Origin: a virus
Direction: 5' to 3' (one strand)
DNA: 27,164 bases
Virus record (IMG/VR): IMGVR_UViG_3300023172_000154
Span: 1 to 27,164 of that record
This document shows, piece by piece, positions 15,301 through 27,164 of this stretch; position 1 is the first letter of the stretch; each line of letters starts with the position of its first letter. The notes under the pieces were generated by a model. The model had not been told where the DNA came from. It was given only the letters and a program-made list of their open reading frames with translations, and did not search any database. The translations under genes were made by a program, and so were the position numbers.

Positions 15301-18300
15301 TATCATAGTAAATATTAAAATCATATCCTGATAAGGAAGAATCTGATAAATCAAATACTAAGTTATTATTTCTAAAAGAATTGATTTTTGGATTTACTGA
15401 TGATAATTTTTGATCAGATCCGCCTGTTCCACCAATACTTACCACCAGTGGTGGGTTGTTTGTAGAATCAATATAAGTTTCACAAAGTTTTATATTATTA
15501 TCATTCACCTTATAAACATAAAAATCACCAGTAGAAAGACCAGAAGATACTACATCTGCCGAATAATTAACTTTATCACCAGTAGATAAATTGTGGTTAG
15601 GAATAGTAATAGTATTTGTAGTTGTATTCACTCCAGCAGAATTAAATCCAATTTGATTAATAAGAATCTTAGAGGTATATAAATCTCTGATAACTTTAAC
15701 CGAAGTGGAAGCAATTCCTACAGAAAGATTTGGATTGACTGTAAGATTAATTAAATCTCCACTTAACATTCCATGTGCGGTAGAAACCGAAACGGTTGCC
15801 TTTACTCTAGATACGGTGCCAGTTTCTTGTGTGTAATCAGAATTGAAATAGTATTCATAATCATTATCATCTCCTCCACTGTGGAAGAAAAATTCACTAG
15901 TTCCAATACTAGCCTTTAAACCAATTAAATCCTTACCTTTGTTAGAAACATAAACTGTGGAAGGCAATCCACCACCAATTAAGTTAACACCATCTGTAGA
16001 AACGTTAATTAGTGAACCAGTATAACTGTATGAAAGTTTTTGATTATTTTTGAACGGATGATTTTCTACGTAAATTGATTTTGTAGGAACACTTCTTGTT
16101 ACAGTTTCTATTCCAAAATCAAAAGTTTTTGTATCAAAAGATCCAACAGTTGTTCCAAATCCAACAGACTCTTGTGGATTAAAATAAACTTTATCATTAA
16201 CCTTAGAATCAAAATAATCTAATTCTTTTTCAATTGTAAATGAATCGGGGTAGAAAGTGACAATAGAATTTTTATTGTGAGAAGTTCCTGTTAAACCTCT
16301 CTTAACTTTTAATATATTTTTATCTTCAAATACACCCAATACTTCTAAAAATTCTGTTCCAATGCCAATACTGCTACCGATTGATATATTATTCGGAATA
16401 TTTGAAAGATATAGTTCTGTTCCACCGATACTGATAGAACTTGTTACAGTAGAAAGTGAAGTTGCTGATTCGGAGGGAACTGATATTTTATAAGTTCCAT
16501 TTAAATCCGAAAGGTTATTTGATAGATTTGAAAACGTTATATAATCACCATGATTGAAGTTGTGATTTGAATAATTTGAACTTGTTACTTCTACCTTAGT
16601 TGAATTTTTTTGCGAAATAATAAAATTATCTTGCGATAATACTGATGTGTTTATATCAACAATATCTTTACCTTTTATTGATGACACTTCTAAATTCAAA
16701 CCACCACCACTGGTTCCTGTATTGTCAAAATTTACAGAGTCTCCGACAGAATACTTGTCTCCAAAATTTATGATTTCAAAATCATCAATAGAACCAGAAA
16801 AAACGGATTCAACTTTAATTTTTTGCCTTGTTATATCATCAATTTCTGTAAAATAATCATATCCTGCACCAATATCCGAAACTTTATATGGTAAAGTGTT
16901 TCTTAAAAGATTGGAGGATTTGAAATCAAAAGATTGATCTAATGACTCATTTTCATCTAATGTTTCTGATGTATATTCATCACCAATAAAATATGGGAAA
17001 ACTGGATTTCCTGAAGAATCTATTGTAGCATAATACGCATAAACTCCATTTGGAAACTCTATCGTTTTTGCAAATCTTCCATTGTTTTTATCTAAATCAC
17101 CTCCAGGTAAAAATTGATAATCTTCATTGAAAAATCCATCAATAAATCCTAATGGTCTATCTACGACATTTGATGAATTTAATGAATATCCAGAACTTAA
17201 TAAAGTTTTTGTAGAAGTTTCATCATCTGGATCGGAGTATCCAAAAGGACCATAAATTGGATTTCCATCATAAGCCCATCCAATAATTTTAGAAATAGAT
17301 GGTGTAGGTGAATTTGAAGAACTTTCTTTAAATGCTGTTCTTAAAGAGTTGAAATATCCCGAAACTGTATATTTTAGTTTATTGGAAGAATTTAGTAAAA
17401 TTTCATCTCCAAACTTAAAGTTATTATTGACCGTCAGATATCTAATTTGTGTTCCAAATGATGCATCAGTTCCCGATGATTTTACTCTGATACTTGAAGA
17501 AGTGGAATACGAAATGCCTGGATTTACAACTATTGCATTTGAAATTTTACCATTTGAAATAGTTGCTCTAACTACAGCACCTGTTCCAGATCCGGTTGGA
17601 TCAAATACCTCCAATTCTGGAATAGAATAGTATTCTGCACCTCCATACTGTAAAGTTACTGATTGTACTTCTCCACCTATGATATTTGGACTAAGTGAAG
17701 CATTTTTGCCATTTTTGATAGTTATTACTGGTTTTTCTTCATAATTTAAAACTGTTGATCCATAACCAGTTCCTTTCTCATAAAGATATGTATCAACGAT
17801 GCTTCCTTTGACTACAGGAGTTACTGATAACTCTTGATATTGTTGAGAAGAAGATGAAAATCCAACTGGACTATATTTTATTGTTACTGATACATCTGGA
17901 TAATTAAAATATTGATAACCAGAACCAGTATCCGAAAACTTAATATAGTCTCTTCTATTAAACTCACTTACAATGGTTCCACCAACTCCAGCATTGCAAA
18001 TTCTAAATGAGTCATCATCAATTTTAATAACAAAATATTGATTGCTTGTCGAAATTCCAGTTATACCAGAAGTCTCAAAATTGTAAGTTATTAATTCTCC
18101 AGTATTGAATCCATGATTTGCAAAATTAATAGTATTATTTTCTGTAGAAATTCCAGTGGGTAATACTATAAGTTTTCTATTTGTATATCCACTTCCACTA
18201 TCTAATATTTTTACGGTTGAAATTTTGTTTTTTGGTACTGACGTTCTAAATTTATGAATACCATCAGTTCCTGTAGAAAAACCAACCTTGTTAATATTTA

Positions 18301-21019
18301 AATTATAATCAGATTGTGTTTCAAATAAAGATATAGTCCTATTATTTTCTACTTTAACAAAATAAGATTGTTTATCTATTAATGTTGTTGTTGATCCATC
18401 TATACTTAAATTTAAATTTCCATTGTTATTATAAACAATTTCTTCACCATCTTGGAAATTATGGTCGGAAGTAAACTGAATTCTGTTTAATCCTGTTCCT
18501 ATTCCACCACCATTAGTTGATTGTCTTCCGTCAAAAGATACTGATCTAAATTGTTGTGTTATAATAGGTTCAATTATAGCACCAGAACCGTTTCCGCCAG
18601 AAATATCTATTGATAATATTTTATCAATATCATAATTTTGCGTATCAATATAAACATTTTCAATTTTTCCACTAACAACTGGTTGTACTAAAGCTGTTGT
18701 TCCATTACTCGAAGAAACTTCTAATACTGGAGGATTTAATACATCGTATCCACTTCCCTGGTTAAAAACCTCCACATTAGATAATGGACCATAATATACT
18801 TTATCAAAAGACTTATAATTTGAAATTTCAACTCCATTAATCAACATTCCTGTTGTTCCTGGAGTAGTTGATTTTCCGGGAGATTTTATTTTTGTATTTA
18901 AAGGAAATTTTTTAAATATTTTTTGAATTCCAATCTCATCTTCTTTTTGAGAATACAAAGAAAATGTGTGAGTACCTATTCCAGCATTTGGTATGCTAAA
19001 AGTTTCATAATCAGTTCCACCTATAAAAGACCTGGAACTATAAAGTCTCATCTGTTTGGGATTAGACAAAACCTCAACATAATAAGATCCTGTTTCCAAT
19101 CCAACGAGTGCAGTTGAATCTGGTTGGTAATAAATTCTATCACCAGTTATAAATGGAATATTAACATCACTCAATATGATAGAATACTGATTTTCTAAAT
19201 TTTTATCTAATAATCTATCTTCAGAATTTATTGTAAACTTAAAAATATTTTTTGTAATATTATACCTGTAACTATTATCTCCATCAATCTGTCCAGATGG
19301 TAAAGAATTTGAAGCAACATATGCATAATCACTACCATCAGTATATACATTTTGAATGTCAGAGGTTATTATATTATTACCATATTCAATTGGAACACCA
19401 GAACTAAAAGATGTATTAATCTTTCTTCTAAGATCATACTTTATAGAAGGAACGGTATCAAAAGAACCTTCAAGTTTTACCGTATTTTCTGTTATAATAT
19501 TGTCGATATAAGCAGGAACACTTCCAGTTTCTGCCACAAAACTTTCTTCACCATTTCTTTCTAATAATTCTACCCTATCACCAACTTTCAAACTTGATTT
19601 GTCAACATTACTATTAAGAATATAATTTGATTCTATTGAATCTACTTCATATTTTGCTGCAGTATTGTAGATCCAAGAATTTGCAAAAATTTCTTTATAT
19701 GTTTTATTTTCAATTGGATTTTTTACTACATCTCCAAGATTTTTAATGGATATTTTACTTCCTTCAACTACTCTGATATTTTCAGATTCTTTTATAAAAT
19801 CTGAAATTACTCCAAGGAATCTTAACTCTACTTTTTTAGAGATATCATTGTCTTGATAAACATAATAAGTCTTATCAGATGTAATTAAACTATTTTTGGA
19901 TATTTCGTTACTAATCCCAGAACAACCCAAAAATTGATTAATACTCTTACCTGTATACAGTATTGTATTGCTTCCAGATATTAAAGTTCCACTATCTTCA
20001 AATCCTATAGTAGAATCTACTGTCAATACATTAGATCCAACAGAAGCCGTTAAAGTTGATTTTGTGCTTGGAGTTATTTCAAAATTTCCTTCAATTGCGG
20101 AAAATTCATTATATCCAACAAAGAGAAAAAGTTTGTAGTATGTTTTAGATCCTCTTCTAAAAGGTTCTATTGATGATATAGAGGCACTAGTAGAACTATC
20201 ATTAGTTTTTTTAATAGTCCTTCCAGATAATTTTGATGCATCAAAATCACTTTCATCAAAATTTAAAGAAATAACCTCAGCAATTACAACTTCTCTTCTT
20301 AAATATTCGGATGATGATGGTTTAATTAAGTATTGTTCTAAATTTAAAACAGTTGGTTTTTCATTGTAAAGAACAGCAAATAAAATTCTAAAAGATTCAT
20401 CTGTTCCTTTGGCAGTATAAAAAGATTTTGTTTCTTTTAAAAAATTACTAACTTTTAAACTAGGAGTAAAATCAACCTTTTGTAATTCGGGAGTAAGAGT
20501 ATATTTTATCTTTTCATAAAATTCTTTCAAAAATAAAGAACTTAAATTTTCTATTGTTGAACCAGAAGTATGAGAATCTGATGTAGTTTCGGAAAAAACC
20601 AATTCTTCTTGATCTAAATCTTGATGATATCCAGTAATTCCACTAAATCCACGAATACAACCAGTAAAAGTATTTCCACTAATTCCAGTATACGTAATTA
20701 CTTCATCGTCAATTTTAAATAGACCATACTTACTTGGGAATCCTTTTGTACTCGATACTTCAATGGTATCGTCAGACGCACTAATATCTGTAGATAGAGT
20801 AGAGTTATCTACTATTACTTCTGGTATGAGTTTATCTAACTCCAAATATTGGTCTAAATTTTCAGCAATATCAATTGGTCCACCTTGATATTCTTGAGAT
20901 ATGTAATATTGCTTTAAAAATTCTACCGCATTTGGATTTTCATCCAATATAAAACTTGGAAGTTGGTTCTCAATAATTTGCTGAACCTTAACTCTAGATT
21001 CAAATCCAGTCTGTATCAT
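9398..21019 (-). CDS. gp7: Giant gp7-type baseplate wedge protein (3873 aa)
   Basis: This lies between gp6 and gp8, the position of T4 gp7 (1032 aa), but is nearly four times longer. The N-terminus (about 1-60, QIIENQLPSFILDENPN) and FLKETKSFYTAKGT followed by ESFRILFAVLY (about 193-218) are typical of the cyanophage version. The rest is modular and beta-rich. A module with DDEVITYTG then an RG turn lies at about 75-133. Several NHxFxxGDxIxY modules lie near 850, 965, 1480, 1650, 1800 and 2920. Several GSGYxxxP repeats lie near 755, 940, 1030 and 3350. A YHYH-like motif is at about 1246-1263. Two INGIxQ modules lie near 3195 and 3505. It starts one base after the gp6 stop. The gp7 assignment rests on gene order and recall of the family, not on clear similarity to T4 gp7. 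Confidence 0.85.
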   Translation of the reverse strand: MIQTGFESRVKVQQIIENQLPSFILDENPNAVEFLKQYYISQEYQGGPIDIAENLDQYLELDKLIPEVIVDNSTLSTDISASDDTIEVSSTKGFPSKYGLFKIDDEVITYTGISGNTFTGCIRGFSGITGYHQDLDQEELVFSETTSDSHTSGSTIENLSSLFLKEFYEKIKYTLTPELQKVDFTPSLKVSNFLKETKSFYTAKGTDESFRILFAVLYNEKPTVLNLEQYLIKPSSSEYLRREVVIAEVISLNFDESDFDASKLSGRTIKKTNDSSTSASISSIEPFRRGSKTYYKLFLFVGYNEFSAIEGNFEITPSTKSTLTASVGSNVLTVDSTIGFEDSGTLISGSNTILYTGKSINQFLGCSGISNEISKNSLITSDKTYYVYQDNDISKKVELRFLGVISDFIKESENIRVVEGSKISIKNLGDVVKNPIENKTYKEIFANSWIYNTAAKYEVDSIESNYILNSNVDKSSLKVGDRVELLERNGEESFVAETGSVPAYIDNIITENTVKLEGSFDTVPSIKYDLRRKINTSFSSGVPIEYGNNIITSDIQNVYTDGSDYAYVASNSLPSGQIDGDNSYRYNITKNIFKFTINSEDRLLDKNLENQYSIILSDVNIPFITGDRIYYQPDSTALVGLETGSYYVEVLSNPKQMRLYSSRSFIGGTDYETFSIPNAGIGTHTFSLYSQKEDEIGIQKIFKKFPLNTKIKSPGKSTTPGTTGMLINGVEISNYKSFDKVYYGPLSNVEVFNQGSGYDVLNPPVLEVSSSNGTTALVQPVVSGKIENVYIDTQNYDIDKILSIDISGGNGSGAIIEPIITQQFRSVSFDGRQSTNGGGIGTGLNRIQFTSDHNFQDGEEIVYNNNGNLNLSIDGSTTTLIDKQSYFVKVENNRTISLFETQSDYNLNINKVGFSTGTDGIHKFRTSVPKNKISTVKILDSGSGYTNRKLIVLPTGISTENNTINFANHGFNTGELITYNFETSGITGISTSNQYFVIKIDDDSFRICNAGVGGTIVSEFNRRDYIKFSDTGSGYQYFNYPDVSVTIKYSPVGFSSSSQQYQELSVTPVVKGSIVDTYLYEKGTGYGSTVLNYEEKPVITIKNGKNASLSPNIIGGEVQSVTLQYGGAEYYSIPELEVFDPTGSGTGAVVRATISNGKISNAIVVNPGISYSTSSSIRVKSSGTDASFGTQIRYLTVNNNFKFGDEILLNSSNKLKYTVSGYFNSLRTAFKESSSNSPTPSISKIIGWAYDGNPIYGPFGYSDPDDETSTKTLLSSGYSLNSSNVVDRPLGFIDGFFNEDYQFLPGGDLDKNNGRFAKTIEFPNGVYAYYATIDSSGNPVFPYFIGDEYTSETLDENESLDQSFDFKSSNLLRNTLPYKVSDIGAGYDYFTEIDDITRQKIKVESVFSGSIDDFEIINFGDKYSVGDSVNFDNTGTSGGGLNLEVSSIKGKDIVDINTSVLSQDNFIISQKNSTKVEVTSSNYSNHNFNHGDYITFSNLSNNLSDLNGTYKISVPSESATSLSTVTSSISIGGTELYLSNIPNNISIGSSIGIGTEFLEVLGVFEDKNILKVKRGLTGTSHNKNSIVTFYPDSFTIEKELDYFDSKVNDKVYFNPQESVGFGTTVGSFDTKTFDFGIETVTRSVPTKSIYVENHPFKNNQKLSYSYTGSLINVSTDGVNLIGGGLPSTVYVSNKGKDLIGLKASIGTSEFFFHSGGDDNDYEYYFNSDYTQETGTVSRVKATVSVSTAHGMLSGDLINLTVNPNLSVGIASTSVKVIRDLYTSKILINQIGFNSAGVNTTTNTITIPNHNLSTGDKVNYSADVVSSGLSTGDFYVYKVNDNNIKLCETYIDSTNNPPLVVSIGGTGGSDQKLSSVNPKINSFRNNNLVFDLSDSSLSGYDFNIYYDKEFKSKFVSTASTSGFNISRIGTDLIINYDSNIPEKLYYAIEKSGVLIQPDKDVKKYSEISFVKSYYNGNYNIIGVGTTTFELILDTNPEKSSYLQSECDILEYTTNSPTSTGSIDDLKIISSGSGYKKLPEFNSITSSSGENGKILPKSNKIGNIKEVKIINQEFEYPFDTTLQPNVLIPSQISIKDFNTIDEIIVSNGGGEFLSAPNVVIVSNDTRKKIDSGFLQSKITGSSIQSIEIVSEPQGLPDNSVEIFTTNNSNGITIQRMQSSNSGIFTCEITKPSFGLPNLFDPGDEVFIEGIQKYSSDGLGFNSEDFGYKFLTVDNYIVSSPYDLVVFDVSDITTNTGTAKTIQDGSGIIVNKNNYPEFEISLKRTKFLIGESLILGDNELDLIVTNTEGEYLTIDGSYDLSAGQTIIGKNSGVIATVDSVSKYSGKYSVKYSSDYNLGWSNEIGKLDSDTQVTPNNDYYQNLSYSVKSSKEYSTLESPVFSILHTSGMKNFADTKIDKTSNVGFSSGLDESIYLNKFEDSYRVDAIYNFDLTSDYEVVNGTSKYLKLKNIKTTDYTEYRNSEVLSIDDISNLFSYYEDEPSEFLNILKLDNGNSYNNYLIKITNSNNTEIQFTELITLNTGDDQFIIQKANIQNNTTSYGEFELFEDEFGDTYLRFIPVDAYDTDYDLKLIKNSYTSSLSGIGSTSIGFVDLISSNKVVGPNTSSSIVELNSSNFESLYANVQVIDNATDEMNFVELYVVGIGTNTFISEYYSDSDFTNSTFTSDSIGSFEANLNGGTLSLNYDNVTSNTNTVRAKIVGFGTTSLGESEYRFKTNRQTDGSERTVVYQSNYVTGIGATTVVSLNKNFYNAVKSIVEVSIGSTKAVHQVMMVQDGTNVYVHQSPLLSVSGINTFDTALGIGTFGGNNSGSTLDLTFTPEAEYSSYNLEISAFSQYFYTDYDIINTPKILEYGSIEEEMQIKFFNSINGDRINRTNFSLTSDGFPIFVRIFDPQDTNALISTTGVFNINNHFFKNNEELIYTPKSSVIGLATTAMTYNDSTSGVTDILPSTVFAIVNDYDTFQISTTRGGTPVTFTDLGGGNIHQFEMFNKVNKTIVTIDELIQHPLIYSGESRTLSGTIGTETTLFELNSISRVNPSDILKIEDEYVRVDNVGLGTTSVGPITNNGTFNLVLVERGFVGTSSTSHSASTTVDIYRGAYNIVGNEIHFAEPPRGNPQIDRTSSNLNFDTSTFAGRVFLRSDYTTNKIYDDISNQFNGIGRTFTLQVGGANTSGIGTIGGNGIILINGIFQQPSTENNINGNFNILETKSPAPGISSVVFSGVTKPNSDPIEFYTSEYDINVNETPRGGIIISYGSTTGLGFAPLVGASVTAIIGAGGTIAGVTTSPVLGSYGSGYYGPVSVAVTETGHTGSPATITAVVGAGGTLSFNIDAPGSGYNSPSIFVSPPSYENLSVIGVSRLGIGTTTTTGIGLSMSLKVGPVGQTGAGATYFGVTDFEFTKIGYSFQRGDVFKPVGLVTDGRLASPIEDFEITVIETYTDKFASWEFGELDMIDNISPYQDGQRTSFPLFYNSQLRSIQAREDSRVDFSSSLLIFINGIIQEPGFSYIFGGGTSVIFTTPPKKDDNVTIYFYKGLDSDVVSDDVDETLKVGDEVQLLKNNYIQNSVAQEKRVITDLTYSDKFETNPYIGPGIESDENKNKPLLWIKQKSDKIIGGEVISKARDSLKALIYPTANIIGDISVSDDFIFVDDVTLFRYENDGGSYAVPFNGLVVDNVTVGVGSTASVDYVEFISDFNIIQGITGDVTGITSITSPQLGIEFAINDMTNLQVGYPIYITNTNVGSGVTSINLTNTEIIAIGTTYLDNIYRIQAISNTGGSTGIITCYVDSNSNLSGIDTTGSVNYPVGRFSWGRISNPTGLERLNPIGIGVTGRVVSGLSTYPIIMRRGGDVTLRGKGSIYNI

Positions 21020-21020
21020 A

Positions 21021-23006
21021 TTAGTTTCTTATTAGTTTTGGAGTTGGATAACTTGGTGTATAATAATCTCTAGCAAACACATTTCCTGTTATTTCATCAC
21101 CAGAAGCAATTACATCTCTTCTCATATTTATTTGACTTTTTGAAATATCAAATACCAAATATAAGTCTTTTAGTCCAATAACATCATTTGATAGTGGAAC
21201 AGCATCTACTTCAATTATATCATTCGCCTTTACCGTAGATGTAACGTTTATTGGACCCAAAACCATCTCTCCAGTTTGATAATTAACAGTTCCGGCATCT
21301 TTTACAACAATCTGCCTATTTCCATCAGAATCAATCTTAAATATAGAAATTACTCCCTCTGTAGCGCGAATAGATTGTGGTCTTCTGAGGAAAAGATCAC
21401 TGGCACCAGTAGCAGTGGTTACTGCAGTGTTGTTTAATAAAATTGTAGGTGTATCTGTCAGATATACCGTAGAAGTTTCTCCGAATATGGTAAAACCTGT
21501 AGAAGAAATATTACGACCTTCTGGATTTACATGGAATCTGTTTCCAAAACAAAGTTCATATTGTACAAGTTGATTAATCGAAGATCTTAAATCTCTTCTC
21601 ATTCTCACCGTTGTAATATTTGATGTTATTGCATTGTCCGTATTGTCAATTGTTTGAAGAACTTTACTATATTTAAATCTACCACCAAACTTATTAAGGT
21701 CTATTGATTCTGAGTATTTTGTGAGGGTATCTGTAACTCTTGTTTTCAGAGAACTTTCTAAAGATATTTGAGAATTATTATAATAAACCGCAGAATCTAT
21801 TTCTACATATAGTATCTTAAGGTCAACAATTCTTTGATTAATACCAGATATAGTATATTGCTTTAAATCACTAAGAATTCTAGATTTATCAAAATCCGAC
21901 ACATATGTCCCATTTTTGGGTTTAATGCTCAAAAGAACATTTCCAAATTCTGGAGGATCTAATTCTTCACCACCAACAACGGCAACAGATTCTGTATTTG
22001 GATAAATTTGTTTAATTATTGCCTCATAATCTCTTGAAGTAACTGCTCTATTCTGAGAAGAATAAACTCTTGGAGCATAGTACTTAATAGAATTAACTGA
22101 TTCTATTTCCGAACCATTAATTGCTGGATTGATTGTGGTTATAGTAACATTGCCTGGATCAATTACGGTCTCAACATCATCAACTACTTTTACAATACTT
22201 CCTGCAAATGAGAATACACTGGGACCATTACCGTCTCTTCCATCTGTTACAATATAGTTGGCAGTTATGATTGTACCATCGGAAGTAACTTCATCACCAA
22301 GTTTTTTGCCGATTATGCCATCACCAAAAATAATTTCATATTTTTCATCTTGAATTTCTTGTATCAAATAAATTCTTGATTTTGAATCTACATTTAAAAT
22401 ATTATCTACTATATTATACTCAATACCAAGTCCATTTTCTGATGTTTTTTTAACATATACTTTTAGTGTAGATGTGTCAACATATGAGTTATTGAGAACA
22501 AATCTTTGCTCTAATGAACCATCGTATGTAAAAGATTTTGTTAAATATGTTCCTTGATATATCTCTATCTCATTAAATTGCGCTGAACCATCTACTACAT
22601 TTGCCGTGATATCTTCTGGAATTGAGAATGTGTATGTTGTCCCGCTTGCCTCTCCAACACACACTAAACCTCTTTTGAGGGTAAGAGTAGGAACATTTTC
22701 CGAAGTCGTTATAGAGAAGGATACAGTTGCCTTTGCTGCTGTTCTAGACCTTGGAACATATCCAATATTTTTTGCAAGGGATACGACATTCTCACGAAGA
22801 GTTGCAGAATCTAAAAATGACTCATTTACAACCATATTACTGTTGAATGCAGTAATATAAGTGTTGTATGCTAATACATCGATTAAAATTGACAGATTAG
22901 ATCCTTCAAAATCAAAGTCACTAAACGTGGAATTAGCACGAAGATAGTCTTTGATTGATGTTTTTATCTGCTCAAAATCTAGATTGGTAAATTTAGTAAA
23001 AGGCAT
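21021..23006 (-). CDS. gp6: Baseplate wedge protein, T4 gp6 homologue (661 aa)
   Basis: The length (661 aa) is almost that of T4 gp6 (660 aa). The N-terminus has FTNLDFEQIKTSIKDYLR, then DFEGSNLSILIDVLAYNTY and FLDSATLRENVVSLAKNIGY (to about residue 83). This is the conserved helical start of gp6/baseplate J-like proteins. A region at about 320-345 has YAPRVYSSQNRAVTSRDYEA, the core motif of the baseplate J fold. gp6 dimers form the inner iris ring of the baseplate with gp25 and gp53. It sits three bases after gp25 and one base before the gp7-type gene, so all three are probably co-translated from the late promoter before gp25. Confidence 0.95.
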   Translation of the reverse strand: MPFTKFTNLDFEQIKTSIKDYLRANSTFSDFDFEGSNLSILIDVLAYNTYITAFNSNMVVNESFLDSATLRENVVSLAKNIGYVPRSRTAAKATVSFSITTSENVPTLTLKRGLVCVGEASGTTYTFSIPEDITANVVDGSAQFNEIEIYQGTYLTKSFTYDGSLEQRFVLNNSYVDTSTLKVYVKKTSENGLGIEYNIVDNILNVDSKSRIYLIQEIQDEKYEIIFGDGIIGKKLGDEVTSDGTIITANYIVTDGRDGNGPSVFSFAGSIVKVVDDVETVIDPGNVTITTINPAINGSEIESVNSIKYYAPRVYSSQNRAVTSRDYEAIIKQIYPNTESVAVVGGEELDPPEFGNVLLSIKPKNGTYVSDFDKSRILSDLKQYTISGINQRIVDLKILYVEIDSAVYYNNSQISLESSLKTRVTDTLTKYSESIDLNKFGGRFKYSKVLQTIDNTDNAITSNITTVRMRRDLRSSINQLVQYELCFGNRFHVNPEGRNISSTGFTIFGETSTVYLTDTPTILLNNTAVTTATGASDLFLRRPQSIRATEGVISIFKIDSDGNRQIVVKDAGTVNYQTGEMVLGPINVTSTVKANDIIEVDAVPLSNDVIGLKDLYLVFDISKSQINMRRDVIASGDEITGNVFARDYYTPSYPTPKLIRN

Positions 23007-23009
23007 TTT

Positions 23010-23411
23010 TTATCTTGTTGCCTCTAAGAGGAATGTATATTCTTGTGTCGGAAACTCTTGACCTATAATATCAAAAAAGATCGTTACCTCAAAAGAATTT
23101 TGATCTGGTTGAGGATTGACATCAACGTTAACATTATCAACTCTTGGTTCAAAATTTTCTATTGCGATAGAAATTTGTCTTTGAATAACAGATGCCGTAC
23201 CAAAGTCAACGAAATCAAATAAACTTCCCCTAACATCAGATCCAAATGATGAATTAAAAAATCTTTCTGTGGGGATCGTTTCAACAATATTTCTTACGGA
23301 TCTACGAATCGCATTCTCATTTTTTATTATTTGAAGATCCTTTGTCACAGGATGAGGAACAAAGGATAAACTGATGTCTTTAAATGATCTGGATATCCTT
23401 TGTTCTGCCAT
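23010..23411 (-). CDS. gp25: Baseplate wedge protein, T4 gp25 homologue (133 aa)
   Basis: At 133 aa it is within one residue of T4 gp25. It contains NFEPRVDNV (EPR at residues 88-90), the hallmark motif of the gp25/W family, where T4 has NYEPRIDKL. It also has FGSDVRGSLFDFVD (56-69), matching the conserved FGCDLSDQLFE segment. gp25 binds gp6 and the sheath-initiating complex in the inner baseplate. It is the first gene of the late cluster gp25-gp6-gp7, with an exact late promoter 23 bases before its ATG. The ribosome binding site is weak (TCAAGAAAAC). Confidence 0.95.
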   Translation of the reverse strand: MAEQRISRSFKDISLSFVPHPVTKDLQIIKNENAIRRSVRNIVETIPTERFFNSSFGSDVRGSLFDFVDFGTASVIQRQISIAIENFEPRVDNVNVDVNPQPDQNSFEVTIFFDIIGQEFPTQEYTFLLEATR

Positions 23412-23433
23412 TAGACTAGAGTTTTCTTGATTT

Positions 23434-23441
23434 TATTTATA
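23434..23441 (-). promoter_or_regulatory. T4-type late promoter for gp25-gp6-gp7
   Basis: An exact TATAAATA on the minus strand lies in the 31-base gap after the stop of the 72-aa gene. It is placed to drive gp25, gp6 and the giant gp7-type gene, which together span about 14 kb. Confidence 0.8.
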
Positions 23442-23442
23442 T

Positions 23443-23661
23443 TTACTCATGCCACCTTTCAACAAAATCATCAAAACCATGAGAACCACCACAAGGACGC
23501 TCTAAACGATCGTCTGGAATTGGGTAGAGTTCCTCATTTTGAGTAATTTTTCTTTGTTTTGATGCTTTTCTAAGGTATTTCTCACTTTCTACTTCTGTAA
23601 TAAGGGTCATTCCTTGCTCTATGAATAATTCTCCCTTATCAACCTGGTGATAATTTGACAT
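23443..23661 (-). CDS. Conserved hypothetical cyanophage protein (72 aa)
   Basis: A 72-aa charged, soluble protein with no membrane segment or known motif. The N-terminus (YHQVDKGELFIEQGMTLITE) looks strand-rich, and the C-terminus ends with a conserved-looking CGGSHGFDDFVERWHE tail. A good Shine-Dalgarno (AGGAGC) precedes the ATG, next to a small hairpin. I have seen similar small proteins near gp25 in cyanophages but know no function. The region upstream holds an AATAAATA late-promoter-like site inside the 222-aa gene. Confidence 0.75.
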   Translation of the reverse strand: MSNYHQVDKGELFIEQGMTLITEVESEKYLRKASKQRKITQNEELYPIPDDRLERPCGGSHGFDDFVERWHE

Positions 23662-23663
23662 TT

Positions 23664-23688
23664 TTAGCTCCTGATTCGTTAAAATCAG
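23664..23688 (-). promoter_or_regulatory. Hairpin adjoining the ribosome binding site of the 72-aa gene
   Basis: On the minus strand CTGATT and AATCAG form a perfect 6-bp stem with a 6-base loop. The second arm runs directly into the AGGAGC Shine-Dalgarno. The stem could modulate ribosome access to the 72-aa gene. It has no following T-run, so it is not a canonical terminator. Confidence 0.3.
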
Positions 23689-23705
23689 AACTTTTAGAGG
23701 GGTTG

Positions 23706-24374
23706 CTATCCCTTATCAGTATTTATTTCACGCTCTTGAGCAGTCTTCCAGTGATATTCATCTTCATTTCCCATTCCTAGACGATCATAACCACACTCTA
23801 CCTGATAATATTGGGTGGAAACCTTAAAATCTGGCATTTTTGGTTCGGCAGGTGTCAGACTATTATCAAAAATACGTAATCGATTGTTTGGATACAGTGC
23901 AAATTGTCCATTGTTCAGTTTAATCAGGTTATGTGACTTATGTTCGGCAGGATTTTCACTCGTTGCCCAGTCAACCATATCTGGATCACGGTGATAATTG
24001 TCGATGGTACAAACATAAGTACCTTTTTGGATTCCAAAGTCGCGTGTATAACACTCAAAGTCCATACTACCAATGAATTTCTTGTCAATACTGACTACAC
24101 CATAGTCCATACAGTTCCAAAACTGTAGATTTGGTAGGTTCATATCAGGGTCAGGTAGTTCTGGACGAGATAAAAAGGCACTGATAGGCAATTTATCATA
24201 CATTGCCGCATATTCTGGTAAATATGTCTCAAAATAAAAAGCGCGTCCAGGAATCGACTTTGCCGAAACCCAGACGCCCTTAACAAATTCACCGTGCCCA
24301 CTTTGATGGTCTGTAAGATATTCTTTACGAACCCATACCTCAACAGATGGTAGATTGGTGATGAGACAACTCAT
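23706..24374 (-). CDS. Conserved hypothetical cyanophage protein (222 aa)
   Basis: A 222-aa soluble protein rich in aromatic residues and prolines (EVWVRKEYLTDHQSGHGEF at 12-30, LQFWNCMDYGVVSIDKKF near 83-100, YPNNRLRIFDNSLTPAEPK near 161-179). I recognise the overall sequence type as a conserved cyanophage protein of unknown function, and I cannot assign a fold or active site. Its ATG lies at the base of a 7-bp hairpin whose other arm contains the stop of the 44-aa gene, and it has little Shine-Dalgarno. This suggests coupled translation. An AATAAATA late-like element lies in its 3' end. Confidence 0.8.
   Translation of the reverse strand: MSCLITNLPSVEVWVRKEYLTDHQSGHGEFVKGVWVSAKSIPGRAFYFETYLPEYAAMYDKLPISAFLSRPELPDPDMNLPNLQFWNCMDYGVVSIDKKFIGSMDFECYTRDFGIQKGTYVCTIDNYHRDPDMVDWATSENPAEHKSHNLIKLNNGQFALYPNNRLRIFDNSLTPAEPKMPDFKVSTQYYQVECGYDRLGMGNEDEYHWKTAQEREINTDKG
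23720..23727 (-). promoter_or_regulatory. Probable late promoter for the 72-aa gene
   Basis: The minus strand reads AATAAATA, seven of eight bases of the T4 late consensus and a full ATAAATA core. It sits in the last codons of the 222-aa gene, 58 bases before the 72-aa ATG. The surrounding sequence is less AT-rich than the structural region, which makes chance somewhat less likely. Confidence 0.4.
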
Positions 24375-24396
24375 AAGACTTTAGTAACTGTCTTAT
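24372..24396 (-). promoter_or_regulatory. Hairpin spanning the stop of the 44-aa gene and the start of the 222-aa gene
   Basis: ATAAGAC and GTCTTAT pair perfectly (7 bp) around a 10-base loop. One arm holds the TAA of the 44-aa gene and the other leads into the ATG of the 222-aa gene. There is no T-run of the kind expected for a terminator, so a role in translational coupling is more likely. Confidence 0.35.
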
Positions 24397-24527
24397 TTAC
24401 CTTGACCACGATAACGCTTTCGTGCTTTATTGCGAGAAGACGCGGCATACTTGGTATGAGCACCCCTGCCTTGACGAGTTTTCTTCGGTGCGCCTTCAAC
24501 ATAACCGCCACCCTTACGCATAGCCAT
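24393..24527 (-). CDS. Small basic glycine-rich cyanophage protein (44 aa)
   Basis: A 44-codon frame encodes MAMRKGGGYVEGAPKKTRQG and ends with SRNKARKRYRGQGK. Fourteen of the 44 residues are Lys or Arg, with Gly-rich ends. I recognise this as a very small protein widely conserved in T4-like cyanophages, but no function is known to me. The composition suggests binding to nucleic acid or an acidic partner. A strong Shine-Dalgarno (AAGGAG) lies inside the end of the preceding gene, and only two bases separate the genes. Confidence 0.85.
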   Translation of the reverse strand: MAMRKGGGYVEGAPKKTRQGRGAHTKYAASSRNKARKRYRGQGK

Positions 24528-24529
24528 AA

Positions 24530-24691
24530 TTAATACTCCTTAGTAATCTTAGTTTCAAGTTCTTGTGGACTTGGATGACCTGTCTGATAAAACTCTACCG
24601 ACAGGTCCTCCATCATATCAAAGTACTCCTCCTCCGTCAAGTTCTTATATAAGACTTTGTTGTTTCGGAGAATTGTATACTTTTCTGTCAT
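24530..24691 (-). CDS. Small conserved cyanophage protein (53 aa)
   Basis: The 53-aa product begins MTEKYTILRNNKVLYKNLTE and continues EEYFDMMEDLSVEFYQTG. The N-terminal strand-turn-strand and central acidic helix match a small protein I recall from many T4-like cyanophages. No function is known. It starts four bases after the glycosyltransferase stop and ends two bases before the 44-aa gene, so the three are one translational string. Its last codons supply the Shine-Dalgarno of the 44-aa gene. Confidence 0.85.
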   Translation of the reverse strand: MTEKYTILRNNKVLYKNLTEEEYFDMMEDLSVEFYQTGHPSPQELETKITKEY

Positions 24692-24695
24692 CGTA

Positions 24696-25454
24696 TCAAA
24701 TCACTCTTGTCTTCTCGTGACCAACTCTGATACGAGGGTCACACCAAATCTCAAAGCCTGCTTCCTTTGCATCCAGACAGAAACTTACATCCTCTCCGCA
24801 CATATCCTGAACCTCTCCAGATTCAAAGACTTGCATCTTCGGTGCAAACCAAGGATACTTCATATCCTCATGTTCAAAGACTCCGTGCTTGATCAGTAAC
24901 CATCCAAATCCTGCATAATCAACAGTAAATGGCTCCTTACGCTTTGACATGGTTTCACCAGTTTCATGATTCATGACTCCACCATTATTGCGGAAGTCAT
25001 CCTCCTCCATCCAGTGTGCAACAGATGTAGTACGACCGTCCTCAGTCATGTACCATCCACTTGCAATGTCCTGATCCATTAGAACCAGTTGCAAGAATTT
25101 CTCAGTATTGAAAATAATATCACTATCAATCCACAATTGATAGTCATAATTCAACTTTCCATCCCAGGGAATTTGGTCGGGTCCTCGCAGTACATTCGCT
25201 CCTAAACATTTGCATCTTGCAAAGTTTACCATCGATGAATAGTCTTGCGAGATCTGAATGCTTGCTCCTGCTTGTACAAGATCAAAACACAATTGTACAA
25301 AATTTTTCAGATATGTATATGAGACACCCCTTCCAGGTAGACAGAAGACGATTGCCTTTCCTTTGATCATCTCCTTTGCTTTCTCATAGTCCCACTCTGG
25401 GGCACTTTGAGACGGTGTGGGTGGTTTTGCTTTTACGGTAAATCCTTTAGCCAT
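24696..25454 (-). CDS. Putative GT-A-type glycosyltransferase (252 aa)
   Basis: A 252-aa soluble protein with hallmarks of a GT-A fold. An initial strand and glycine-rich turn AIVFCLPGRGVSYTY lies at 34-48. A YQLWIDSDIIF strand contains a DxD-type motif (DSD, 110-112) that would bind the metal and nucleotide sugar. A VDYAGFGWLLIKHGVF segment lies at 178-193. A late GEDVSFCLDAKEAGFEIWCD (220-239) with a following VGH (His 246) resembles the ED catalytic region and metal-ligand His of such enzymes. The acceptor is unknown; modification of virion or host surface is only a guess. A near-consensus sigma70 promoter lies directly upstream, and no Shine-Dalgarno is visible. Confidence 0.75.
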   Translation of the reverse strand: MAKGFTVKAKPPTPSQSAPEWDYEKAKEMIKGKAIVFCLPGRGVSYTYLKNFVQLCFDLVQAGASIQISQDYSSMVNFARCKCLGANVLRGPDQIPWDGKLNYDYQLWIDSDIIFNTEKFLQLVLMDQDIASGWYMTEDGRTTSVAHWMEEDDFRNNGGVMNHETGETMSKRKEPFTVDYAGFGWLLIKHGVFEHEDMKYPWFAPKMQVFESGEVQDMCGEDVSFCLDAKEAGFEIWCDPRIRVGHEKTRVI

Positions 25455-25476
25455 AATAGAGTGTAATTACTTCAGT

Positions 25477-25505
25477 ATCATACAGTATTATCTATGTAAC
25501 GTCAA
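25477..25505 (-). promoter_or_regulatory. Sigma70-type (early) promoter for the glycosyltransferase gene
   Basis: On the minus strand a -35 TTGACG (25500-25505) and a -10 TATGAT (25477-25482) are separated by exactly 17 bases. Each hexamer matches the consensus at five of six positions. The start of transcription would fall near 25470, leaving a leader of roughly 16 bases before the ATG. This is a host-type early promoter, unlike the late elements further left. Confidence 0.7.
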
Positions 25506-25526
25506 TCTCCCTTGATTTCACTACGT

Positions 25527-25709
25527 TCAGTCCTTACGGACCTCGGTTATCACAATACAGTCTCCCTCGATCTCCATGTTTACTTGGGTGCCCTCGTACC
25601 ATCCAAAATCATTCAGTACCCACTCGGGCAACTTTATATAATACTCCCCAGTCACGGTATCGACTTCTACGGTCGTAAAATTTTCCTCCGGATTTTTTTG
25701 CATTTTCAT
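25527..25709 (-). CDS. AbrB/MazE-like (SpoVT-AbrB fold) small protein (60 aa)
   Basis: A 60-aa protein whose core (about residues 12-58) reads VEVDTVTGEYYIKLPEWVL, then GWYEGTQVNMEIEGDCIVIT. The order is strand, a KLP turn in place of the usual IP, helix, a W-x-E-G turn, and two strands. This is the swapped-hairpin AbrB/MazE pattern. Similar small proteins occur in cyanophages and cyanobacteria. No toxin gene is adjacent, so a role as transcriptional regulator is as likely as antitoxin. A clear Shine-Dalgarno (AAGGAA) lies eight bases before the ATG. A second in-frame Met at codon 3 is possible. Confidence 0.7.
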   Translation of the reverse strand: MKMQKNPEENFTTVEVDTVTGEYYIKLPEWVLNDFGWYEGTQVNMEIEGDCIVITEVRKD

Positions 25710-25858
25710 GTTTTCGTTCCTTGATTTTATATATGTGCTTGAAGAATTTAGAGGTCGATCGTAACACTTTGTAGACTAAGGGGACCCATGGGTTTTATAT
25801 ACACGGCGGCGACCCCGCCCCGGTCGGGGGGTCGGGGCACTGCTGCTGCACGAACGAA
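25710..25858. other. Longest intergenic gap, at the base-composition boundary
   Basis: These 149 bases hold no supported gene. The left half is AT-rich and carries the Shine-Dalgarno and TATATAAAA/CTAAATT sequences upstream of the 60-aa gene; neither is a clear promoter match. A perfect palindrome ACCCATGGGT lies near 25785-25794. The right half is strongly GC-rich and structured. The switch occurs within about 20 bases around 25795-25805. Confidence 0.6.
25811..25837. repeat. GC-rich tandem octamer and hairpin
   Basis: GGTCGGGG occurs twice in tandem (25822-25829 and 25830-25837). The preceding CCCCGCCCC can pair with the repeat in a 9-bp stem with one bulged base, and GACCCC/GGGGTC offers an alternative 6-bp stem. 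It lies just past the stop of the 142-aa gene. It could slow or stop minus-strand transcription, but no T-run follows. Confidence 0.5.
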
Positions 25859-26287
25859 TCAGAACCCGAAGCGTTCTGCATCCAGGGCACGGCAGATGCT
25901 CTCAACCTGAGCATCGGTCTGCCATTCGGTATCGGTGGCAAACTCCGTGTCCAGGGTGCGGATACGGGAGACCTTCATCCAGACGGAGGAAGCAGAATGC
26001 GATGCCTCAGGGAACTGGCGGAAGTAGGCGGAGCGGGTTGCCTGCATGTCGGCACCCGATGCCAGGTAGGTCTGAACCAAGAAGACGACCTCTGCATCGG
26101 AGTAGAGTTCGCGGGTGGGTGCCTTAGCGGCGGCGAGTGCTGCCTCCATCAGTTGGCGTCCCTTCTTAAAGAGGAGACGCTCAGGACGGTCCAGGTTGGT
26201 CAGACCAAACCCGTCAACGTAGGCGACGTTCTCTTGATAGAACTCCAGAGCGGCGGTGTCGGCGGAGGTCAGAGCGGCGATGGTCAT
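25859..26287 (-). CDS. Putative DNA-binding accessory protein (142 aa)
   Basis: A 142-aa protein with a helical N-terminus. It then has LYSDAEVVFLVQTYLAS (61-77) and, after a short arginine-bearing helix, SHSASSVWMKVSRIRTLD (96-113). This spacing of an E-x3-L-x2-Y helix, a middle helix and a S-S-V-x2-K-x2-R-I recognition-like helix resembles Myb/SANT or phage HTH domains. It ends WQTDAQVESICRALDAERFGF from residue 122. I recall related proteins in cyanophages but have no function. A strong Shine-Dalgarno (AAAGGAAA) precedes the ATG, downstream of one copy of the duplicated promoter module. GC content is far higher than in the structural genes. Confidence 0.7.
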   Translation of the reverse strand: MTIAALTSADTAALEFYQENVAYVDGFGLTNLDRPERLLFKKGRQLMEAALAAAKAPTRELYSDAEVVFLVQTYLASGADMQATRSAYFRQFPEASHSASSVWMKVSRIRTLDTEFATDTEWQTDAQVESICRALDAERFGF

Positions 26288-26299
26288 GAGGTCGTTTCC

Positions 26300-26359
26300 T
26301 TTGAACTGAAGTCAGTATAGGGTCAATCGGTCCCCCAAAGCGGGGGGAGTGGACAGTTG
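26300..26359 (-). repeat. Duplicated 60-bp promoter module, copy 1 (upstream of the 142-aa gene)
   Basis: On the minus strand this copy reads CAACTGTCCAC (box A), 26 non-conserved bases, then box B: CCCTATA, C, TGACTTCAGTTCAAA. Copy 2 at 26838-26897 has both boxes at the same spacing, with one difference in box B. The variable middle here includes a TCCCCC/GGGGGA hairpin (26331-26348). Confidence 0.75.
26314..26319 (-). promoter_or_regulatory. Putative -10 element (TATACT) for the 142-aa gene
   Basis: TATACT matches the TATAAT consensus at five of six positions and lies within the conserved box B, 26 bases before the ATG. No conserved -35 hexamer is found at 17 bases upstream. Box A lies about 29-39 bases upstream of the -10, where an activator could bind. 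Confidence 0.5.
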
Positions 26360-26521
26360 TCAGAACTGGATCGGTTCGGCACCCAGGGCGACAACCCTGG
26401 CGTGTTCGGCGGCATCGATGCCCTGAGTTTCCAAATCGGTGGCGATGCTGTCCAGGATTGCCAGCAGTTGGGTTCCGTCAGCGGCACGGTTCAGGAGGGA
26501 GGTTGCCAGGTCGCGGGTCAT
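26360..26521 (-). CDS. Short accessory protein (53 aa)
   Basis: A 53-aa frame encodes MTRDLATSLLNRAADGTQLL followed by AILDSIATDLETQGID, and ends EPIQF. It looks like a small all-helical protein with an acidic, alanine-rich tail. The N-terminal pattern (RDLA-x2-LL followed by G-x3-L-x2-LD) resembles short proteins I recall from cyanophages and cyanobacteria, but no function is known. No Shine-Dalgarno is visible before the ATG. The stop is directly followed by box A of the 60-bp module. Expression is less certain than for the longer neighbours. Confidence 0.6.
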   Translation of the reverse strand: MTRDLATSLLNRAADGTQLLAILDSIATDLETQGIDAAEHARVVALGAEPIQF

Positions 26522-26565
26522 GGTAGGATGTTGGTTTGTGGTTTGAAAGGAAAGGGGGAGGAGGG

Positions 26566-26829
26566 TCAGAGGTCCGCCATCATCTCCTCCATCTCAGCGG
26601 CGTTGATGGCGGGGTCATCCCAGCGAACACCGTCGCCAGTTTGACCGATGAAACGACCAATCTGCCCCTCCATCATACAGCGTTGGAACTTTTCCCAGGG
26701 GGTCTCCCAGGAGGCACAGAATTCCACACACGCCTTAGCGGTGTTGTACAGGAACTCATCGTTGCCGATCCAGAGGGCGGCATTCCAGGTTTCGTAGTTT
26801 GCCCAACCGTTGTAGGTAGCGGTGCTCAT
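26566..26829 (-). CDS. YNGWxNYETW-family cyanophage protein (87 aa)
   Basis: The protein starts MSTATYNGWANYETWNAALW and has two Trp-rich segments (to about residue 47) and an acidic methionine-rich C-terminal helix (EMEEMMADL). YNGWxNYETWN marks a family (I recall DUF7249) found in cyanophages, other phages and cyanobacteria, with no known activity. I chose the ATG at 26829 over an in-frame one at 26853. The upstream ATG forms part of the TATAATG of the putative -10 element and would not be in the transcript. There is no clear Shine-Dalgarno. It lies 44 bases upstream of the 53-aa gene. Confidence 0.8.
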   Translation of the reverse strand: MSTATYNGWANYETWNAALWIGNDEFLYNTAKACVEFCASWETPWEKFQRCMMEGQIGRFIGQTGDGVRWDDPAINAAEMEEMMADL

Positions 26830-26837
26830 CGGTGTCG

Positions 26838-26897
26838 TTTGAACTGAAGTCATTATAGGGTGGAGAAGCGTCCCATCGGTTGGGCGGTGGACAGTTG
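26838..26897 (-). repeat. Duplicated 60-bp promoter module, copy 2 (upstream of the 87-aa gene)
   Basis: On the minus strand this copy reads CAACTGTCCAC, 26 non-conserved bases, then CCCTATA, A, TGACTTCAGTTCAAA. Box A and the middle encode the last residues of the 102-aa protein, so the module overlaps coding sequence. Conservation continues weakly into the leader (CGAC), but the GGAAA that gives copy 1 its Shine-Dalgarno is missing here. Confidence 0.75.
26852..26857 (-). promoter_or_regulatory. Putative -10 element (TATAAT) for the 87-aa gene
   Basis: A perfect TATAAT lies 23 bases before the ATG at 26829. It contains the TAA stop of the 102-aa gene. Seventeen bases further upstream the sequence is ACCGAT, a poor -35 match, so activation through box A is plausible. 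Confidence 0.55.
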
Positions 26898-27161
26898 CTG
26901 AATTGCCATCTGCTCCATGATGGGTCGCCAGTTCAGACGCTTAGAGTCGGACTTTTGCAGACAGTGGCGGTTGACCCATCCCCCTTTGCTAGTCTTGCCA
27001 GAATACCAGAGCATTCCCAGGATGGCGCGACGGGAGACGTGGGTGTGGCGGTATTCGGTCAGGGGGGCATTGAACCAGCGGACCCGCGCAGTGCCCGTGA
27101 TAGGGTTAAGGCGAAGCGTCCAAACGCTTTGGGAGTCGTTGCAGTTGATGGGGTAGCGCAT
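26853..27161 (-). CDS. Accessory protein with a KTSC-like region, possibly incomplete at the N-terminus (102 aa)
   Basis: The visible frame starts at an ATG three bases from the window edge, so the true start may lie outside. The segment WTLRLNPITGTARVRWFNA (14-32), then Y-x-H-x2-VSRRAILGML and SKGGWVNRHCL (58-68), follows the strand, strand, helix, G-x-x-N-x-H order of KTSC-like domains, which are small and of unknown or RNA-related function. This is a weak pattern match. The C-terminal QQLSTAQPMGRFSTL is encoded inside the 60-bp module, and the stop is part of the downstream -10 element. GC content matches the accessory block. Confidence 0.65.
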   Translation of the reverse strand: MRYPINCNDSQSVWTLRLNPITGTARVRWFNAPLTEYRHTHVSRRAILGMLWYSGKTSKGGWVNRHCLQKSDSKRLNWRPIMEQMAIQQLSTAQPMGRFSTL

Positions 27162-27164
27162 CGG

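Follow-up and report, generated by a model that had tools for sequence, protein, structure and literature searches.

The window analysed here, a 27,164-base virus record of a T4-like cyanophage (IMG/VR record IMGVR_UViG_3300023172_000154), carries, on its minus strand, homologues of gp25 and gp6 together with long tail genes, followed by small genes. Before two of these small genes the same pair of short sequences occurs at one fixed distance, and this raises the question of what kind of element is repeated there. Each copy lies on the minus strand and has the form CAACTGTCCAC - N26 - CCCTATA(C/A)TGACTTCAGTTCAAA, at 26359..26300 (copy 1) and 26897..26838 (copy 2); the C/A position is the sole mismatch in the 34 box positions, and the 26-nt middles differ. 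A preliminary description of this DNA, which named the upstream block box A and the downstream block box B, proposed a dedicated phage regulon and not a simple recent duplication. From the analyses presented below we conclude that each copy is likely to be a complete promoter of a −35-less, activator-dependent, early-type class of T4-like cyanophages (Kyanoviridae). The features of the region are the following:

25859..26287, minus strand: 142-aa ORF behind copy 1, predicted to be driven by it; ATG 12 nt past box B
26300..26322, minus strand: box B of copy 1, CCCTATACTGACTTCAGTTCAAA, with the −10-like hexamer TATACT at 26314-26319; a block conserved in 93 non-redundant sites
26323..26348, minus strand: 26-nt spacer of copy 1, with the hairpin TCCCCC-N6-GGGGGA (six-pair stem, −11.0 kcal/mol, z −2.0)
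26349..26372, minus strand: putative operator palindrome of copy 1; right arm AACTGTCCAC at 26349-26358, left half CCAGTT at 26364-26369, 5-nt gap
26360..26521, minus strand: 53-aa ORF preceding copy 1, with its stop codon (26360-26362) inside the gap between the palindrome arms
26566..26829, minus strand: DUF7249 gene (PF23907, phrog_871), predicted to be driven by copy 2; ATG at 26827-26829, 8 nt past box B
26838..26860, minus strand: box B of copy 2, CCCTATAATGACTTCAGTTCAAA, with the −10-like hexamer TATAAT at 26852-26857
26861..26886, minus strand: 26-nt spacer of copy 2, with a weaker hairpin (−5.7 kcal/mol, z −0.87)
26887..26910, minus strand: putative operator palindrome of copy 2, GATGGCAATT-cagc-AACTGTCCAC; left arm near 26901-26910
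26853..27161, minus strand: 102-aa ORF (phrog_7365) preceding copy 2; the 3' end of this ORF crosses the right arm and the spacer, with the stop in the −10

The coordinates, the 33 matching positions out of 34 and the N26 distance are exactly those that had been described. The gapped pattern had two matches in the window, as against none in 100 dinucleotide shuffles, and a profile of the site family, run on the window with filters off, scored the two copies at 48.4 and 43.5 bits (E 2.7e-14 and 9.2e-13), the next-best match having an E of 0.35. Protein comparison bore out that the products encoded downstream of the two copies are unrelated to each other; for the 142-aa ORF a family search gave nothing better than E 0.2. 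In copy 1, box A lies in non-coding sequence immediately past the stop codon of the upstream ORF, and that of copy 2 codes for QQLST near the C-terminal end of the 102-aa ORF, so that box A is not forced by protein coding, a possibility that the preliminary description had left standing. ORF callers may start genes within box B, as at 26853 in the window and at 24102 in S-PM2, and since the reading frame stays open through TATAATGACTTCAGTTCAAAC, unrelated proteins can acquire a false leader, for example MTSVQT.

The G+C content of the window is about 33-37% up to 24 kb versus 56-60% at the modules. In the stretch 25500-27164, which holds four small genes, the G+C content is 56-60% with 0.72-0.75 at third positions, and in the adjoining tail genes about 33% with 0.14-0.22. 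A chimeric assembly at this jump is unlikely because a second IMG/VR contig (L041) shares the junction, within 99.8% identity across 15713-27164 of the window (11.4 kb). This sibling contig carries a third copy of the module, at about 572-645 in its own numbering and some 1.4 kb further upstream. The same block of small genes upstream of gp25 was found again in related contigs.

A further 68 IMG/VR contigs held the exact box B pattern; when three mismatches were allowed, 128 sites were found, of which 93 were left once near-duplicates were removed. Alignment of these 93 sites on box B separates an inverted repeat, a spacer without conservation and CCCTATAMTGANNTCAGTTCAAAC. The first of these blocks is a 24-bp imperfect palindrome, TGTGMCAGTT-N4-AACTGKCACA, of which box A is the right half; box A, read earlier as an activator site, is only one part of a longer site. 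In 92 of the 93 sites the repeat ends 25-28 nt ahead of CCCTATAMT, whereas the same palindrome matrix gave a flat distance distribution on shuffled upstream sequence, and the first ATG follows 7-14 nt past box B in 87 sites. This fixed spacing around a free middle, together with the differing adjacent genes, upholds the reading as a regulon against that of a simple recent duplication. The middle varies freely, as had been noted, but it often holds a terminator-like hairpin of the upstream gene: the spacer hairpins average −6.9 kcal/mol versus −4.1 in shuffles, with 32% below z −2, and that of copy 1 is a possible candidate for the terminator of its upstream gene.

The −35 region shows no conservation among the 93 sites. 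Compared with a canonical sigma-70 promoter (−35 and −10 separated by 16-18 nt), the −10 is present and the −35 absent, and a −35/−10 consensus scan of the window listed neither copy; the sequence TATAAATA, which a T4 late promoter carries at −10, is replaced by TATAMTGA in the box B of the family. The centre of the repeat lies 41-43 bp, or four helical turns, upstream of the −10, and would fall at roughly −54 if transcription starts 6-8 nt past the hexamer. The arms are complementary at 5.5 of 10 positions within a site and at 5.6 between sites, with a random expectation of 2.5; as pairing is equally good within and between sites, the DNA site of a dimer is favoured and an RNA stem disfavoured. 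This argues for both arms following the symmetric preference of a protein, and we therefore speak of a predicted dimer site. The expected start falls within box B, which also contains a repeat of the half-site CAGTT, with a small inverted repeat ACTGANNTCAGT around that start.

A profile built from 91 sites was searched against 13 cultured T4-like cyanophages and T4, and although some of the weaker cyanophage matches (E as high as 0.5) could be due to chance, all 13 cyanophages gave matches (S-PM2 19, S-RSM4 9, S-WAM2 13, S-SM2 1, S-T4 13, S-SCSM1 5, Sf-CH1b 8, S-H9-1 14, S-RIM32 9, Bellamy 4, Syn9 3, P-SSM2 3 and S-CRM01 11) and T4 gave none. The further copies that the preliminary description proposed to look for are thus found in the sibling contig, in the 68 other contigs and in every cultured cyanophage tested, and the element is common to marine and freshwater T4-like cyanophages. 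One copy precedes cobS in S-SM2, S-T4 and Bellamy, and the element therefore also occurs outside the small-gene block. Many of these profile matches span the palindrome, the spacer and the −10 only. With a matrix of the palindrome, hits above 9 bits numbered 67 in S-PM2 and 55 in Syn9 (18 and 24 in reversed controls), and of these 21 and 6 had a TANANT hexamer 27-31 nt further on (0 and 1 in reversed controls); Syn9 had been left out of the training of the matrix and makes the one fully independent test, since S-PM2 had supplied two of the 91 training sites. The Syn9 sites lie on the plus strand before the small genes gp55-gp90 of the block upstream of gp25, and past the −10 their sequence differs from that of the window family, with GTGTATTCTATAAGAGTCAAAG in several of them. 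They include those at 43113, 44774, 47204, 48558, 49078, 51000, 51211 and 52996. From these results and the differing tails it follows that the palindrome plus the −10 is the general element. The TGACTTCAGTTCAAA tail, judged by the sites compared, belongs to one set of lineages only, and its conservation goes beyond what promoter recognition alone explains. As a common box, box B accordingly holds for its −10, but not for its 3' part, from which Syn9 and other S-PM2 sites depart. In Syn9, the record positions 48558, 51000 and 52996 carry that phage's own repeated tail GTGTATTCTATAAGAGTCAAAG after the palindrome; tails appear to be homogenised within a genome.

Some of these copies touch on annotation. 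In S-PM2 the modules at 21487, 22929 and 23418 (region 21480-24550) are followed by plus-strand small ORFs without annotation in the record; p067 and p070 are annotated there on the opposite strand, p070 overlying a plus-strand homologue of DUF7249. The annotated starts of gp61 and gp73 in Syn9 (record positions 44804 and 48608) fall within the module, and for both the ATG past the −10 is the likelier start.

Among 61 host-family genomes the full profile found no match at E 0.01, with 77 candidates scored per genome. The relaxed palindrome alone occurred 12 times versus once in the reversed control, in 7 genomes, and the loci that were read lacked a −10 at the fixed distance. We take the module, on the evidence of these searches, to be a phage feature. 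One host contig with two palindromes showed no phage match. The strict palindrome was seen in 84 stretches of bacterial genomes, many of them from filamentous cyanobacteria and Acidobacteria; near-perfect TGTGACAGTT-N4-AACTGTCACA palindromes occur in both groups, several in one Pyrinomonadaceae genome (SSF56), and are perhaps other operators or the ends of elements.

The flanks of the module are mosaic. Homology between contigs begins or breaks off at box B much more often than elsewhere (459 homology starts observed versus 51 with random sites), although promoter conservation alone accounts for part of this clustering. When the flanks of 118 distinct sites were compared, 72 pairs were similar on both sides and 442 on one only (248 upstream, 194 downstream), and one-sided pairs in both directions indicate that genes are exchanged at the module. 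This behaviour resembles that of the PeSLs, the promoter early stem-loop cassettes known from T4-like phages (Arbiol et al. 2010 and Comeau et al. 2014, as cited in PMC4503421), without the −35 of a PeSL.

Taken together, we favour the following working. A homodimeric DNA-binding protein would bind the 24-bp inverted repeat, and given that the repeat is centred four helical turns upstream of the −10 and no −35 is present, the bound protein would most likely recruit the host RNA polymerase, substituting for the −35 contact at a sigma-70-type −10. Short-leader transcripts of single small phage genes would result, probably early in infection; both activation and early timing are suggested by the anatomy of the site. 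The 26-28-nt spacer would be free to carry the terminator hairpin of the upstream gene, and the conserved box B also serves as a point of cassette exchange. An immediate-early promoter of this type would need a host or a virion-borne activator.

The symmetry of the operator could also serve a repressor that silences early genes later in infection or in superinfected cells, the −10 working unaided with the host polymerase, and the half-site CAGTT and the ACTGANNTCAGT repeat over the expected start fit such a role. However, a core without a −35 would be weak unaided, and a palindrome that precedes the core promoter in strict phase is typical of activators, so we judge repression improbable. That the bound protein is a cyanobacterial transcription factor, whose site the phage imitates, agrees with the need of early transcription for pre-existing proteins and with the excess of relaxed palindromes in host-family genomes; these sites are restricted to 7 genomes and are without the phased −10 in the loci read, and the full profile gave no match among the 77 candidates scored in each of the 61 genomes, for which reasons a host regulon also seems unlikely. 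The part of TGACTTCAGTTCAAA that would be transcribed stands directly before the ATG, where it could act in the mRNA leader, for instance as a translational operator; nevertheless, conservation reaches upstream of any possible start, and RNA structure in the palindrome is disfavoured by arms that do not covary within sites and by an Rfam search that gave no match, which makes an RNA element very improbable.

If the module were kept mainly as a recombination joint of promoter plus stem-loop, with regulation secondary, the excess of homology starts at box B, the many pairs sharing a single flank and the frequent spacer hairpins would all be expected. Yet recombination requires neither fixed phasing nor a symmetric operator, the spacers that should supply the homology are the least conserved part, fewer than a third of them hold a hairpin below the z threshold, and conserved promoters by themselves also end homology at such points; a PeSL-type cassette is accordingly improbable as the main explanation. 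Only tentatively do we extend the activator-dependent promoter to a wider scheme, in which an activator specific to the Kyanoviridae, perhaps carried in the virion, would bind the palindrome, replace the −35 contact and define a transcription class; the lineage-specific box B would also be a cassette joint, and lineages would trade promoter-plus-gene units of small takeover genes in a mobile system distinct from PeSLs.

Candidates for the regulator were sought among the phage proteins. The zinc-finger activators of the Ogr/Delta family (PF04606) were found in none of 14 phages at E 1, and the GerE-type helix-turn-helix (PF00196), which would point to a LuxR/GerE-type activated promoter, matched no cyanophage at E 1. 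By eye, the "transcriptional regulator" S-PM2p196 has no recognisable DNA-binding motif and was set aside. A 60-aa AbrB/MazE-like protein (phrog_661) is encoded at 25527-25709 of the window, and its family occurs in 10 of 14 T4-like records. It is a possible phage regulator; as regulator of the module it was rejected, being missing from Bellamy, S-SCSM1 and S-CRM01, all of which have the module. As a predicted operator of exact sequence and fixed geometry, the module can serve as bait for the regulator; it can also help to detect small genes that annotation has missed, to put start codons right and to trace the exchange of small takeover genes between phages.

Late promoters of phage P2 are activated by Ogr/Delta, have no −35 and carry an inverted repeat centred near −55, from which the activator contacts the host polymerase. 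The module shares the missing −35 and a symmetric site predicted near −55 but differs in sequence and half-site spacing, and since neither an Ogr/Delta nor a GerE protein was found in these phages, it is not a member of the P2-type class. T4-like cyanophages lack alt, modA, modB, motA and asiA, and the control of their early and middle transcription has been called unclear; sigma-70 early promoters and NATAAATA late promoters have been described in S-PM2 and Syn9 (PMC2984593). With the former the module has a TATAAT-like −10 in common, whereas it lacks the −35 and adds the upstream palindrome; its box B is not the late octamer NATAAATA. Cyanophage genomes were also searched earlier for sigma-70, T4 late, Pho and NtcA sites (PMC3037559). 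Like a PeSL, the module is a promoter between small genes, in many copies with a hairpin nearby, and is a point where adjacent genes shuffle; in contrast, it has no T4-type −35, its palindrome stands in fixed phase and its hairpin is optional. PeSL-driven acquisition was judged unlikely for the S-PM2 ORFanage (PMC4503421). In S-PM2 the modules are most densely packed at 21.5-24.3 kb, past the tRNA cluster that comes after the ORFanage.

A search of the open literature found no paper quoting the motif of the module; the geometry of the palindrome, the lineage-specific tail and the exchange of cassettes are documented here from sequence comparison. In 2016, Doron and co-workers (ISME J, doi 10.1038/ismej.2015.210) reportedly described a novel regulatory element that controls early genes in Syn9 and P-TIM40 and is both abundant among T4-like cyanophages and conserved in them. 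The module is probably the same element, given that phage, position and distribution fit: the phage family is the same, the module sits in Syn9 between small genes, and its occurrence in 13 of 13 cultured cyanophages and not in T4 corresponds to the spread attributed to the Syn9 element. Unlike the sites in Syn9, those of the window family also carry the conserved tail TGACTTCAGTTCAAA.
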